Of a stretch of DNA of 64,000 bases, positions 1-10,408 are shown in pieces. The stretch covers positions 1,674,001 through 1,738,000 of the forward strand of contig NZ_CP059987.1 in NCBI RefSeq assembly GCF_014483895.1. The letters run 5' to 3'. The position numbers and the translations under genes are program-made. A model generated the notes under the pieces. That model was not told the origin of the DNA and searched no databases. It worked only from the letters and a program-made list of their open reading frames with translations. The DNA comes from Protaetiibacter sp. SSC-01 (lineage in GTDB: Bacteria > Actinomycetota > Actinomycetes > Actinomycetales > Microbacteriaceae). How positions within the stretch are numbered: the first letter of the stretch is position 1; every line of letters begins with the position of its first letter.

Positions 1-1187
1 CCGTCCGCGAACGACAGGGTCGGGAAGGTGCGCCGCGCGGTCTCCCCCGCAGCCGGGTCGAAGACCGAGACCTGGGCGCCGCGGAGGTGCAGGGCCGCCG
101 CGACGTTGAGGGCCGGCGAGTCGCGCACGTCGTCGGTGAGGGGCTTGAAGGCCGCACCGAGCACTCCCACGCGCGCGTTGAGCACCGATCCCCCGCACGC
201 CTGCAGCGCGAGGTCGACGACGCGCTGACGCTGGGACATGTTGATCTCGTCGACTTTCTGCATGAGGCCGACGACCTCGCGCGCTCCGAGCTCGCCGGCG
301 CGGTGCATGAGGGCACGGATGTCCTTCGGGAGGCAGCCGCCGCCGAAGCCGAGGCCGGCGTCGAGGAAGCGGCGCCCGATCCGTCCGTCCAGGCCGATCG
401 CGTCGGCGAGGGCGTTGACGTCGGCGTCGGCCGCCGTGCAGAGCTCGGCGATCGCATTGATGAACGAGATCTTGGTGGCGAGGAACGCGTTCGCGCTCAC
501 CTTGACGAGCTCGGCGGTCTCGAGACCGACCGTGAGGAACGGCGCGCCCTCGGCGATCGGCGCGGCGTACACCTCGCGCATGGCGGTCTCGGCCGCATCC
601 GACGCCCCGCCGATCACGACCCGGTCGGGGTGCAGCGTGTCGTCGACCGCCTTGCCCTCGCGCAGGAACTCGGGGTTCCAGATGAGCTCCGCCTCGATCC
701 CGGCGGGCGCGAGCGCGCCGAGCAGCTCGCGCAGACGCGCGGCGGTGCCGACCGGCACCGTCGACTTGCCGACGACGATCCCGTCGTGGCTGAGCGCCCG
801 GGCGATTCCGGCGACCGCCGACTCGACGAAACGCAGGTCGGCCGCGTGGCTCGTCGCCTGCTGCGGGGTGCCGACGCACACGAAGTGGATGTCGCTCATC
901 GCGACGGCCTCCGCGAGGTCTGTCGTGAACCGCAGGCGCCCCGACTCGAGGTGCGTCGCGATGAGCTCCTCGAGGCCGGGCTCGTAGAACGGCACCCGGC
1001 CGCGCGAGAGCGCCTCGATCTTCGCGGGGTCCGTGTCGACGCCCACGACGTCGAAGCCGAGCTCCGCCATCGCCGCGGCGTGCGTCGCCCCGAGGTAGCC
1101 CGTGCCGATGACGCTCACCCGCGGCCGCGGCGCTCCAGCCCCCTGCGCGCCCGACGTCTCGGCGTCGTCCCTCATCATCCCGAACAT
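1..1187 (-). CDS. ugd: UDP-glucose 6-dehydrogenase, 3' end outside window
   Basis: NAD-dependent oxidation of UDP-glucose to UDP-glucuronate, the precursor for acidic polysaccharides. The reading frame stays open from the ATG at 1187 to the window edge, so the C-terminal end is missing. Visible features are an N-terminal Rossmann motif VIGTGYLGATHAAAMAELGF, the segment FVCVGTPQ, a conserved NPEFLREG stretch, and the catalytic-cysteine motif FGGGCLPKDIRAL, followed by the start of the C-terminal domain (GVLGAAFKPLTDDVRDSPA). The start is chosen because GGAGGAG lies 6 bases upstream; two more in-frame ATGs follow at 1178 and 1175. It lies 27 bases downstream of the GH26 gene in the same direction, so it is probably the third gene of that operon and supplies the sugar donor. 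Confidence 0.93.
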   Translation of the reverse strand, partial: MFGMMRDDAETSGAQGAGAPRPRVSVIGTGYLGATHAAAMAELGFDVVGVDTDPAKIEALSRGRVPFYEPGLEELIATHLESGRLRFTTDLAEAVAMSDIHFVCVGTPQQATSHAADLRFVESAVAGIARALSHDGIVVGKSTVPVGTAARLRELLGALAPAGIEAELIWNPEFLREGKAVDDTLHPDRVVIGGASDAAETAMREVYAAPIAEGAPFLTVGLETAELVKVSANAFLATKISFINAIAELCTAADADVNALADAIGLDGRIGRRFLDAGLGFGGGCLPKDIRALMHRAGELGAREVVGLMQKVDEINMSQRQRVVDLALQACGGSVLNARVGVLGAAFKPLTDDVRDSPALNVAAALHLRGAQVSVFDPAAGETARRTFPTLSFAD

Positions 1188-1214
1188 CCGCTTCTCCTCC
1201 CGTGTGCGGTGCCG

Positions 1215-2627
1215 TCAGCCGAGCGGCTGCGTCTGGATCCGGCCGCCGAGCCCCGCGAGCCCCTCGCGGAATGCCGCGAGCGAGTCGGCGCGCGAGTCGA
1301 TGCGCCAGTCGTTGGTGGCGCGCTCGCCCTGCACGTACGTCGTGATGGCGAGGCTGAACCACGAGAAGCCGACGATGTCGTCGTTGGCGGGATCGGCGAG
1401 CCCCTCGAAGAAGCTCTGCACCCATTCCGCCTTGTGGCCCTCGATCTCGGATGCTCCCACCTCGGCGAGGACGATCGGCTTGTCGGTGAGGTCGCGCAGC
1501 TGGGCGAGGGTCGCGCCGAACGTCGAGTCGAAGGAGATGTCCTCGCCGTTCCGGAACGGCGGCCTCAAGTAGCCGGACATGCCGACCCAGTCGACGTACT
1601 CGTCGCCGGGATAGAGGCTCGCGAGGTGCTCGGGCGAACGCAACACGCCGGGGAGCTTGTCGATGCGGTTGGGCGCCCACACCCAGATGACCAAATCGTT
1701 CGCACCCTCCTGCTCGAAGATGTCGTGCACGTAGCGCCACACCGCCGCATAGTCGCCCGGGCGGTTGCCGTTGATCGAGGAGCCCGACTCCCGTCGCTCC
1801 GACCACGGGTACCACGTGCCGTTCATCTCGTGGTTGAGCCGGATCGCGAGGGGCAGTCCCGTCTGCGCGATCGACTGCGCGTAGCGGCGGAGGTAGTCGT
1901 CGAAGGCCCCGTCGAGAATGCGCGGGAGCGAGTACTCGGGCTCCTCGACGACGTCGTTCTGCGCGGCGATGGGCCGCGACTCCCACGTGAGCAGGGGCAG
2001 CATCCCGCGCGACCACGCGCGTGTCACGGCATCCGGGCGGAAGTCCTGGTCCCAGCCGCCGAAGTAGCCCACCATGCTCGGCAGCGCGCCGACCTTCGTC
2101 GACGTCGCGTCGAACGTCGCCCAGTTGTGCGGCGCCTGCTCCGTGTACATGCCGTAGTACATCGCGTTCGGTGCCACGAGCTCCGCCCGGGTCGGCGCCG
2201 TGACCTGCACAGGCGCGGGCGCCGCCTTCGCGGGCGGCTGCGGCTTCGGGGCGGCCGGCACGCCGTTGCGGTTCGCGGGCGCATCCCGCAGGAGCGCGAG
2301 CTCCTTGAGCGCCGCCTGGAGCGCGCCGTCGTTCTCCGCGAGGGCCTGCTCGGCGTCGATCTTGCCCTCGGTGACGGATGCGACTTCCGCCTCGAGCGCG
2401 TCGATCCGGGCGAGCAGGTTCTCGCGCTCCTTCGCCGCGGCGTTCGCCTTCTGCACCTCCTCGGCGGCGCGGATCGTCTGCTGCACGGGCGAGATCTCGG
2501 GCGAGGTCCAGACGACGACGCTCACGGCGGTGAGGGTGAGCACGAGCACGGCCGCGGCGACCGCGGTGACGCGCGAGCGCTTCGGGGAGTCGGCCCACCA
2601 CGTGCGGGCTGCGGTGGCGCTAGACAA
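1215..2627 (-). CDS. Membrane-anchored GH26-type glycoside hydrolase
   Basis: Predicted 470-residue type II membrane protein. It has a short cytosolic stretch, one transmembrane helix (about residues 22-45), a coiled coil of about 70 residues, a Pro/Ala linker, then a glycoside hydrolase family 26-like TIM barrel. The likely acid/base Glu is in IRLNHEMNGTWYPWS and the likely nucleophile Glu in PIVLAEVGASE. Family members are endo-beta-mannanases, lichenases or related beta-glycanases; the substrate here cannot be read. The start is a TTG at 2627, 9 bases after GGAGG; it overlaps the end of the glycosyltransferase gene by 8 bases, so the two are translationally coupled. No in-frame ATG or GTG fits. 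By analogy with BcsZ beside BcsA, it may trim or release the polymer made by its neighbour (inference). Confidence 0.82.
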   Translation of the reverse strand: MSSATAARTWWADSPKRSRVTAVAAAVLVLTLTAVSVVVWTSPEISPVQQTIRAAEEVQKANAAAKERENLLARIDALEAEVASVTEGKIDAEQALAENDGALQAALKELALLRDAPANRNGVPAAPKPQPPAKAAPAPVQVTAPTRAELVAPNAMYYGMYTEQAPHNWATFDATSTKVGALPSMVGYFGGWDQDFRPDAVTRAWSRGMLPLLTWESRPIAAQNDVVEEPEYSLPRILDGAFDDYLRRYAQSIAQTGLPLAIRLNHEMNGTWYPWSERRESGSSINGNRPGDYAAVWRYVHDIFEQEGANDLVIWVWAPNRIDKLPGVLRSPEHLASLYPGDEYVDWVGMSGYLRPPFRNGEDISFDSTFGATLAQLRDLTDKPIVLAEVGASEIEGHKAEWVQSFFEGLADPANDDIVGFSWFSLAITTYVQGERATNDWRIDSRADSLAAFREGLAGLGGRIQTQPLG

Positions 2628-4107
2628 GGAGCATCGCCTCCAGTGCGAAGATCGTGAACCCGATGAGGTACGGGATGGCGGCGAGCGGGTTGAGCCGGCG
2701 CCGCCGCCGCGGCCGTGCGGACGGGTCGCTCGGGCTGAGCGCCGTGATGGATGCGACCCCCACGGGGGCGGCGGCCGCGCGCGTGAGCACGGCGGTCGCG
2801 CGGCTCGGAGCGGCGGGCGGGAGCACGGCGCGCTCCGGCGCGGGCTCGATCGCGGGATCTCCGCCCGCGTACGCACCCGCGCGTGTGCCCCATCCGCTCG
2901 CGTGCGCCATCCGGAAGAACCCGAGCAGGCGGATCGGCATCAGGAACAGCGTCGACACGAGGATGAACACCGGCAGTCGCAGGAAGTCGCTCGGCTTCTC
3001 CGAGAGGTGCCGCAGCTGCCGGATGGCCATGCTCAACACCGACGACACGATCATGAGCGCGGCCACGAGCACGACGCCCGACTGGATGCCGTACTGCTCG
3101 AGGAACCCCGCATAGAAGTTGTAGCCCTGCCCCGTGAGCGCGCGATACGTCCAGCCGGCGATGACGCCCCACAGCAGGAAGGGCAGCAGGATGTCCATGA
3201 CGAAGAAGAGCGCGAGCACGGGCGCGTGCCCGAGCATCCAGGGGAGCATCCGGAGCGTGTTGTACTGGCTCCCCCGCGCCCAGCGCAGCTGCTGCTTGAA
3301 GAGCTTCTTCACCTTGAGCGGCGCATCCGTGTACACGAGGCTCGTGTACTGGTACACGGTGCGGTAGCCCGCCTTGAGCGTCAGGTTGGTGAGGGTGCGG
3401 TCGTCGGACACCTCGAGGAAGACGCCGAGGAACCGCTGCGTCATGAAGTCGTGCATGACCCGCATGAGGATCGAGCGGCGGAACGCGATCGTGCGTCCCG
3501 GGAGGCAGCCCACCTGGCCGAGCACGCTCTGCGCGGGCATCGAGTAGAGCGCTCGCGAGTTCTCGAGCCAGTCGGCCCAGCGGGTGATCCAGCTGCGCGT
3601 GGGCTCGAGGATGCGCTGGCGCGTCGTGACACCGCCGACCGTCTCGTCGGCGAAGGGCTTCACGAGCTCCGCGAGCGTGCCCTCCGTCCACACCGTGTCG
3701 GAGTCGACGAGCACCGTGATGTCGCCCGACGAGAGCTCGGTGCCGATCCGGACGGCGTTCCGCTTGCCGGGAATGGGCGTGTGCACCCAGCGCACGAGCG
3801 GCGCGAACTCCTCGCACACCTCGACGAGCGCGTGGTTGGGGGCGCCGTTGATGACGACGATGATCTCGTGAGGCCGCTGCTCGACCATCCGCCCGATCAC
3901 GTCACGGAAGAGGTCGACCGGCTCGTCGACGACCGGGACGACGACGCTCGCCGTGCCGTGGAACTCGCCCGTGAAGGGGCGGTAACGCGACGAGAGCACG
4001 ACCTTGAGAACCCAGAGCCCCCAGATGAGCGCCGAGTACACGGCGAACAGGTAGAGCTCGGGATGCCCCTCCGTCATGTGGCGCAACTGCAGCAGGAAGA
4101 TGAACAT
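2620..4107 (-). CDS. Processive family 2 glycosyltransferase (hyaluronan/cellulose synthase-like)
   Basis: 495-residue membrane glycosyltransferase. One N-terminal transmembrane helix (about residues 15-37) precedes a GT-A domain carrying LVDSDT (donor/metal Asp), VSDDRTLT (catalytic Asp region) and KQQLRWARG, the QxxRW motif of processive synthases. Four hydrophobic segments follow, with an 80-residue Ala/Pro-rich loop before the last one. This is the architecture of hyaluronan, chitin and cellulose synthases that polymerise and extrude a beta-glycan. The start has a purine-rich GAGGGGA 5-11 bases upstream. It is the first gene of a run with the GH26 protein and UDP-glucose dehydrogenase, which suggests a glucuronate-containing extracellular polymer. 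The exact sugar is not readable from sequence. Confidence 0.88.
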   Translation of the reverse strand: MFIFLLQLRHMTEGHPELYLFAVYSALIWGLWVLKVVLSSRYRPFTGEFHGTASVVVPVVDEPVDLFRDVIGRMVEQRPHEIIVVINGAPNHALVEVCEEFAPLVRWVHTPIPGKRNAVRIGTELSSGDITVLVDSDTVWTEGTLAELVKPFADETVGGVTTRQRILEPTRSWITRWADWLENSRALYSMPAQSVLGQVGCLPGRTIAFRRSILMRVMHDFMTQRFLGVFLEVSDDRTLTNLTLKAGYRTVYQYTSLVYTDAPLKVKKLFKQQLRWARGSQYNTLRMLPWMLGHAPVLALFFVMDILLPFLLWGVIAGWTYRALTGQGYNFYAGFLEQYGIQSGVVLVAALMIVSSVLSMAIRQLRHLSEKPSDFLRLPVFILVSTLFLMPIRLLGFFRMAHASGWGTRAGAYAGGDPAIEPAPERAVLPPAAPSRATAVLTRAAAAPVGVASITALSPSDPSARPRRRRRLNPLAAIPYLIGFTIFALEAMLLV

Positions 4108-4538
4108 CCGATCCCCTCTCTCGTCGTCCGCCCGCTCGGCCCACGGGGGGCCTTACGGGGATCCGCGACTCTGGGGACCATGTCCTGTCAGTTCGTGGCT
4201 CGATTCTGAGCGCGCTCTCATGGCCCCCGCAAGAGGGTCATGGACGAGGCGGATGAGCGCGCTCTCATAGATGACGGCTGCTCGTCTCGCTGTGTCGGCA
4301 GAATGACCGACACGCTCCCGCGGTGCGTGAACCGCCCGAGGCGGGTGCGCCTCCACGTTGCAGATGGCCCGGTCAGAGGGCCCTTCCGCGCCGCACGTCG
4401 CGCGACCGGCCGCGCGTCGTCTGGGAGGTCTCCGCGGGCACGAGGCACGCCGATCGGGGTACAGCCGAGCGAGCGTCGTTCTTCTCATCTTCCGGCTCGC
4501 CCGCCTCGGCGTGTCGCGCCGGGCCGTCGGCGTGTCGG
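4108..4538. other. Long intergenic region without a supported gene
   Basis: 431 bases between the start of the glycosyltransferase gene and the end of glnE. No open frame here has both a ribosome site and a protein-like composition. It holds the paired operator-like repeats described separately, a perfect 7-base inverted repeat GTGTCGG/CCGACAC at 4292-4298 and 4307-4313, and, on the minus strand, a weak TATGAG -10-like box overlapping the distal operator. The remainder (about 4320-4538) is GC-rich with nothing I recognise. Confidence 0.6.
4207..4267. promoter_or_regulatory. Paired LacI-type operator-like sites upstream of the polysaccharide operon
   Basis: The 14-mer TGAGCGCGCTCTCA occurs exactly twice, at 4207-4220 and 4254-4267, 47 bases apart. 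Each is an imperfect dyad (6 of 7 base pairs) with a central CG, which is the form of LacI/GalR-family operators (TGnGAGCGCTCnCA type in actinobacteria). On the minus strand the distal copy overlaps TATGAG, a possible -10, so the pair may allow repression by looping or a roadblock of the GT2-GH26-ugd operon. No regulator gene is within the window next to it. Confidence 0.5.

Positions 4539-10408
<5,870 letters not shown>

Follow-up and report, generated by a model that had tools for sequence, protein, structure and literature searches.

The stretch of DNA analyzed here, hereafter the window, comprises 64,000 nucleotides of the genome of Protaetiibacter sp. SSC-01 (contig NZ_CP059987.1, positions 1,674,001 to 1,738,000; G000:C1:1674001-1738000), which consists of a single contig of 2.96 Mb. 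At the beginning of the window lie, in succession on the minus strand, the genes for a processive family 2 glycosyltransferase (GT2, the synthase), a family 26 glycoside hydrolase (GH26) and a UDP-glucose 6-dehydrogenase (UGD), which form a real three-gene operon (Table 1). This succession, with its 8-base overlap, had been proposed in the original prediction and was borne out by the open reading frames (ORFs) and by profile matches. The module was indeed found in the interval assigned to it, 1-4300, but it continues past the window start, with the first 395 of the 471 UGD codons falling inside, and positions 4108-4300 are intergenic.

Table 1. Features of the GT2-GH26-UGD operon and its surroundings; positions are those of the window unless locus L002 is indicated.
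Feature	Position	Strand	Remarks
GT2 processive synthase	2620..4107	-	495 amino acids; ATG start; transmembrane segments and motifs
GH26 hydrolase	1215..2627	-	470 amino acids; TTG start; membrane anchor, predicted helical stalk and lichenase-like barrel; E267 (acid/base) and E389 (nucleophile)
UDP-glucose 6-dehydrogenase (UGD)	1..1187, extends 229 bases past window start	-	whole gene L002 9772-11187; 471 amino acids
Overlap of GT2 end and GH26 TTG start	2620..2627	-	8 bases; GGAGG just upstream of TTG
Intergenic region, glnE to synthase	4108..4538	-	431 bases; presumed regulatory
glnE (context, outside module)	4539..7514	-	gene start not settled; presumed name
glnA2 (context, outside module)	7451..8788	-	presumed name
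glnA1, downstream and convergent	L002 8248-9684	+	matched by profile scans

The overlap between the first two genes also measured 8 bases in 17 of the 24 loci from L003-L032 with both ends read, whereas the remaining seven overlapped by 14 or 17 bases, with start codons picked by script. The same 8-base overlap is annotated on a Curtobacterium plasmid, and resulted from a mechanical ORF call in genome G485, from another order of the class. All hydrolase starts printed were TTG (11 of 11), preceded by GGAGG in ten cases and by GGAAGG in one. In the region upstream of the operon we found no Rfam riboswitch or RNA match up to an E value of 1, and no sigma-70-like match in a promoter pattern search; a single terminator-like match was obtained, versus 0.6 expected in shuffled sequences.

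Conservation of the three genes was examined at increasing phylogenetic depth. A draw of 299 genomes from the family contained relatives of the GH26 (threshold E 0.001) in 81 genomes, of the synthase (E 1e-60) in 50 and of the UGD (E 1e-60) in 247. In every one of the 50 synthase genomes the GH26 gene followed on the same strand, with local matches at most about 1 kb apart, and the UGD gene came next in 49 of them; it did not in G003, whose synthase identity of 57% is the lowest among the 50. An order-wide search with the synthase, in which 22 of 198 genomes had a match at E 1e-30, yielded four further members with more than 50% identity, G384, G449 and G433 (74-75%) and G302 (59%), all of them with GH26 as the next gene. 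There was no UGD in the 16 kb read around G302, and the loci read for the other three end before the UGD position. From a class-wide search with the hydrolase (148 genomes, 20 with a match at E 1e-15, our own included), we recovered the three genes together only in G485, besides the genome of strain SSC-01. Among the 25 hydrolase matches from other genomes, only G485, L204 (28%, 90 bits) and L189 (22%, 38 bits) had a GT2 match within the flanks (up to 1.5 kb), so that the system cannot be recognized from the presence of a GH26 homologue alone.

We also searched named contigs for relatives of the synthase, using the best 80 of 297, which include Leifsonia, Curtobacterium, Salinibacterium, Frigoribacterium, Cellulomonas, Pseudactinotalea and others. 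Both GH26 and UGD follow the synthase in 76 of these 80 loci, and in the four misses (L126, L132, L133 and L141) the contig ends between 0.2 and 1.3 kb past the synthase match. The 80 loci are not independent, because L118 and L119 come from one assembly and many belong to Curtobacterium. The conserved GT2-GH26-ugd neighbourhood that had been anticipated does therefore exist, and the objection that the three genes might not be conserved together fails. Across many actinobacteria from soil and plants, the three genes stay together. An apparent GT2-GH26 fusion in G222 (L058) was discarded as evidence, since the joined frame crosses unknown bases of an assembly gap.

The operon site is framed upstream by genes that we take to be glnE and glnA2, and downstream by glnA1. 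The glnE gene lies upstream of the set in 58 of the best 80 named loci, and in glnE-linked loci the set tracks descent closely. The loci of Leifsonia, Cellulomonas and Pseudactinotalea contained neither glnE nor glnA within the flanks examined and occupy other chromosomal sites, and in Curtobacterium sp. TC1 the set resides on plasmid pTCL. What follows glnE varies, as seen in loci L222, L223 and L224 (genomes G127, G269 and G066). In the congener G127, which lacks the set, glnA1 and glnE are about 120 bases apart; the congener G269 has other genes at the site, by eye an alcohol-dehydrogenase-like and a transporter-like ORF; and in G066, for which neither a synthase nor a hydrolase match was obtained, a UGD gene alone directly follows glnE. 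These site contents indicate that the set has been gained and lost at the glnE/glnA1 site. We regard the operon as transferable. Separately, a Methylocapsa plasmid (NZ_CP136863.1 145734-145913; H90) encodes a 60-residue stretch 83% identical to the synthase, either a fragment from a recent transfer or contamination.

The synthase passes the cut-offs of GT2 Pfam models. Its best NCBIfam profile was NodC, an identity that we rejected because its 115 bits are far under the cut-off of 550, and no BcsA model appeared among its six NCBIfam matches at E 0.001. Motifs DSDT (135-138), SDDR (234-237), QQLRW (272-276) and WGTR (406-409) are each invariant in 29 aligned family members, and include the marks of a processive GT2: D135/D137 of the DxD motif, D235/D236 of the DD base motif and QxxRW. 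The protein has five hydrophobic segments, with transmembrane segments at about 20-38, 298-316, 344-362 and 380-398, and a C-terminal one at 477-495 that comes after a variable linker. Among solved structures, hyaluronan synthases match it best (about 59-63 bits), and it contains their core, with the gating motif W406-R409 in 29 of 29 members and SDDR in place of GDDR; catalytic and nucleotide-binding residues are retained (DxD, DDR, QxxRW, WGTR and the GKR lysine).

We then mapped the synthase onto the positions named for the hyaluronan synthase XlHAS1 (PMC11750622 and PMC12987647). The acceptor collar of XlHAS1 comprises Y288, F292, C307, W382, S385, D342 and R343, and R287 and R296 are two channel arginines near glucuronate (GlcA) (PMC11750622). 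Four collar residues are retained in the operon synthase (C201, W276, D236 and R237), whereas Y288, F292 and S385 correspond to E182, A186 and G279, and the channel arginines R287 and R296 to L181 and M190. All 29 family members show these replacements, with A at position 186 in 26 of them and S in three. A GT2 encoded on a Lactococcus plasmid, mapped alike as a positive control, retains every collar and channel residue. Because the core motifs are kept and the collar is replaced, while the control retains everything, the acceptor probably differs from that of hyaluronan synthases. Judged by its residues, this would be a hyaluronan-synthase-type machine with a different acceptor, probably not N-acetylglucosamine (GlcNAc), which would fit alternation with glucose. 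The label "hyaluronan-synthase-like" used in the original prediction is hence adequate for the catalytic core motifs but not for the acceptor site.

The hydrolase matched the GH26 model PF02156 with 52 bits (cut-off 20). Among the 76 hydrolases from the complete named loci (cassette hydrolases), the HE motif and the second catalytic glutamate are nearly invariant, with H266 in 75 and both E267 and E389 in 76. The single transmembrane segment near the N-terminus (about 20-38) precedes a charged, alanine- and leucine-rich helical stalk, predicted with modest confidence as a helix of 68 residues at 47-114 ahead of the barrel (block pLDDT, the AlphaFold confidence score, about 53-74). The distance from the transmembrane segment to the barrel is 117 to 164 residues in the 26 of 30 aligned members measurable by pattern, and with a length of about 10 nm the stalk could let the barrel sit within the wall or beyond it. 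The barrel itself was modelled well, with a pLDDT of 90 or more in 24 of the 33 ten-residue blocks from residue 141 on. By sequence and fold, the nearest solved relative is CtLic26A, a beta-1,3-1,4-glucanase (lichenase): phmmer gave 1e-25, against 6e-7 for the next GH26; Foldseek gave 4e-22 (next enzyme, 1e-11), the top chain, 6zpl_C, being CtLic26A too; and VIA-align gave a Z of 30.7 (root-mean-square deviation 2.6, 277 aligned), followed by the mixed-linkage xylanase AlXyn26A (Z 24.5) and the mannanase CjMan26A (Z 23.4). The checked catalytic and -1 residues are retained, and the cassette GH26 is thus predicted to be a lichenase-like enzyme. Residues F207 and D261 of BoMan26B are 97% or more conserved in mannanase branches A/B (PMC6556568); their equivalents in the hydrolase, assigned by motif spacing, are Y273 (Y in 76 of 76) and S351 (S in 73, T in two and D in one).

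Arg355, two residues past the -1 tyrosine, occurs in all 76 cassette hydrolases, as well as in the window enzyme and in G485. CtLic26A has Trp at this column, and neither Arg nor Lys was found there among 23 unlinked homologues, some of which are gapped at that point (the 23 include L189 and L204, with L201 left out as it overlaps L187). Arg355 is likewise missing from G302 and G003, the two synthase-linked members without a neighbouring UGD. Relative to CtLic26A, the hydrolase contains inserts at about 219-231 and 425-438, and both Asn224, located in an insert, and the loop with Gly434 are present in 76 of 76 cassette hydrolases versus one of the 23 unlinked homologues. Arg355 would bind the carboxylate of glucuronate, and fits a carboxylate-reading subsite. 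Another arginine, Arg218, also seemed specific to the cassette when the first 30 sequences were compared, but it was dropped, being R in only 41 of 76.

The third protein passes the general nucleotide-sugar dehydrogenase model and is a three-domain dehydrogenase. Comparison with solved structures (UDP-glucose dehydrogenase 4a7p, E 2e-99; GDP-mannose dehydrogenase 1mfz, E 6e-56) assigns it to the UDP-glucose rather than the GDP-mannose type, UDP-glucose being its predicted substrate. Operon UGDs are 67-90% identical to the window UGD, and other UGDs among the matches shown are 60% identical or less, except that of G066 (76%), which also adjoins glnE.

From these sequences we infer the substrates, linkage and cellular role of the system, and the action of the hydrolase on the operon polymer, as follows. 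The UGD would oxidize UDP-glucose to UDP-glucuronate, and the membrane GT2 would polymerize both UDP-sugars, alternately or in part, exporting the chain through a channel of its own. The GH26, held by its transmembrane helix and helical stalk, would meet the chain outside, in or beyond the wall, and trim, release or edit it as it emerges. The product would be a mixed beta-1,3/1,4-linked, glucan-type chain with glucuronate, cellubiuronan-like although not necessarily identical to cellubiuronan. That an acidic polymer is made by the GT2 with a product-directed GH26 seems to us highly probable; the original proposals that the operon serves a synthase-dependent acidic polysaccharide and that a hydrolase of an unusual family is dedicated to it are supported. 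We also favour, on balance, the whole reading of a synthase-dependent operon for a mixed-linkage, glucuronate-bearing glucan with its own lichenase-like trimming or release enzyme. A mixed-linkage glucose/GlcA chain is the best candidate product because of the lichenase-like enzyme and the UGD, but this assignment is tentative. It is possible, although rather doubtful, that the set is a cassette that moves among actinobacteria and whose lichenase-type GH26 was re-tooled, through Arg355 and two new loops, to recognize glucuronate in the polymer of its own synthase, giving soil and plant bacteria a cellubiuronan-like capsule with built-in length or release control.

Other products were weighed against the same evidence. 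Synthesis of hyaluronan, or of a close GlcNAc/GlcA polymer, would agree with the best solved relatives of the synthase, with NodC as its best NCBIfam profile, with the retained DxD, DDR, QxxRW and WGTR motifs and with the adjoining UGD. However, the residues equivalent to Y288, F292, S385, R287 and R296 of XlHAS1 are replaced in 29 of 29 members, whereas the Lactococcus plasmid GT2 keeps all of them, and no GH26 enzyme is known to us to act on GlcNAc/GlcA chains, making this product quite unlikely. Poly-glucuronate, or another GlcA-rich homopolymer, appears very unlikely: the UGD is the sole precursor gene in the set, but to our knowledge no GH26 enzyme cuts uronate-uronate bonds, and the lyase-like protein of this genome belongs instead to its second synthase module, described below.

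If the UGD served another pathway, the synthase could make a neutral mixed-linkage beta-glucan or cellulose-like chain from UDP-glucose, trimmed by a true lichenase. CtLic26A as the nearest hydrolase and the lack of an adjacent UGD in G003 and G302 are in line with this, as is the GT2 of Romboutsia ilealis, which makes (1,3;1,4)-beta-glucan in yeast (PMC10374906). Nevertheless, we consider a neutral product unlikely, as the UGD comes next in 49 of the 50 synthase genomes even though 46 of these have two or more UGDs, and Arg355 sets the cassette hydrolases apart. The beta-mannan backbone offered in the original prediction, bearing glucuronate and with the GH26 as a mannanase, draws on the large branches of the GH26 tree being mannanases (PMC6556568), but we regard it as highly improbable: mannanases rank clearly below the lichenase by phmmer, Foldseek and VIA-align, the last placing the mixed-linkage xylanase between them; the mannanase-branch residues F207 and D261 are Y273 and S351; the dehydrogenase is of the UDP-glucose type; and none of the three contiguous genes, the extent of this survey, activates mannose. 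The mixed-glucan-like backbone with glucuronate, which the same prediction offered as its other option, is the better supported.

Several results nonetheless weigh against a glucuronate-bearing mixed-linkage glucan. No UGD was present in the 15-16 kb read at the synthase-hydrolase loci of G003 and G302, so the core pair may be able to do without glucuronate. The absence of Arg355 from these two genomes has an n of 2 and could mark lineage, and many of the 76 cassette hydrolases are from closely related Curtobacterium. An identity of about 28% between the GH26 and its nearest relative does not settle specificity. In a mirror-tree test of 56 loci, GT2 and GH26 did not co-vary more than descent would explain (partial r -0.017; 580 of 1000 permutations reached this value), and GT2-UGD gave 0.42 in the same analysis. 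Lastly, the AlphaFold model of the synthase (mean pLDDT 52.9) was too poor and was not used.

Related synthase modules were seen alongside. The second one of this genome, outside the window (G000:C1:1364197-1369970; L169 7197-12970), comprises a GT2 about 33% identical to the operon synthase, a 627-amino-acid right-handed beta-helix protein with hydrophobic ends, a 366-amino-acid beta-helix protein close to the solved alginate lyase 6kfn (E 8e-44) and a UGD. In all 11 loci read (L169, L171-L177 and L179-L181) the GT2 has the two beta-helix genes nearby, and six of these loci have a UGD more than 50% identical. By its content, the module resembles an alginate-type set of synthase and lyase/epimerase, but one based on glucuronate. 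Plasmids of Lactococcus and Enterococcus faecium carry a UGD-GT2 pair (L143 6663-9080 and L144 6663-9080); the Lactococcus GT2 scored 198 bits to CvHAS and has all the checked hyaluronan-synthase acceptor residues, making the pair a candidate plasmid-borne hyaluronan (or similar) capsule. In L208 852-3481 (G087), a divergent GH26 ORF overlaps an ORF that by eye resembles an acyltransferase/SGNH protein, and in L170 6003-11306 (G302) an acyltransferase-SGNH gene (Pfam) adjoins the GT2-GH26 pair; these are possibly other polysaccharide clusters using GH26.

Should the proposed model be correct, the operon would reveal an acidic exopolysaccharide that is widespread in Microbacteriaceae and Cellulomonas and of which we found no study, and GH26 would join the hydrolases wired into synthase-dependent export. 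A naturally occurring enzyme would also become available for glucuronoglucans of mixed linkage, among them perhaps polymers like that of pneumococcal type 3. With its three genes, the set is compact enough for expression and testing as a whole.

In the open PubMed Central literature, subscription journals being outside the scope of the search, we found no description of a GT2-GH26-UGD set. For the pneumococcal type 3 capsule, a single synthase joins sugars from UDP-glucose and UDP-glucuronate through beta-1,3/beta-1,4 linkages (PMC12220298, PMC3912152). Going by its described precursors and product, that system (the UGD Cps3D plus Cps3S, producing cellubiuronan) resembles the operon in having one membrane synthase fed by both UDP-sugars, and its mixed beta-1,3/1,4 product would suit the lichenase-like enzyme of the operon. 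The operon differs by its GH26, as we know of no hydrolase in the type 3 capsule locus. With CvHAS and XlHAS1 the operon synthase shares the GT2 core and the DxD, DDR, QxxRW and WGTR motifs, and the Lactococcus and E. faecium plasmid pairs likewise have a UGD as neighbour of the GT2; unlike hyaluronan synthases, it has replaced acceptor collar residues and channel arginines, and a GH26 partner. The hydrolase has in common with CtLic26A, from Clostridium thermocellum, the barrel, the HE motif, both catalytic glutamates, WYPW and the -1 tyrosine, but differs from it in its membrane anchor, stalk, Arg355 in place of Trp and inserts, and in sitting in a biosynthetic operon.

The pairing of a synthase with a dedicated hydrolase is also found in the Bcs (BcsA plus BcsZ), PelA and PgaB systems (PMC7112194), although, in contrast with the Bcs cellulose systems, the operon has no BcsA profile match, a hydrolase of another family and an added UGD. 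The nearest described case that we found is wps-1 of Actinoplanes missouriensis, an actinobacterial exopolysaccharide cluster that also contains a GH26, WpsE, but is Wzx/Wzy-dependent; its authors state that they know of no characterized Wzx/Wzy cluster with a GH26 (PMC13390465). The operon is, as far as we have seen, uncharacterized; we regard it as a new variation on synthase-dependent systems for acidic polysaccharides, not as a category of its own.

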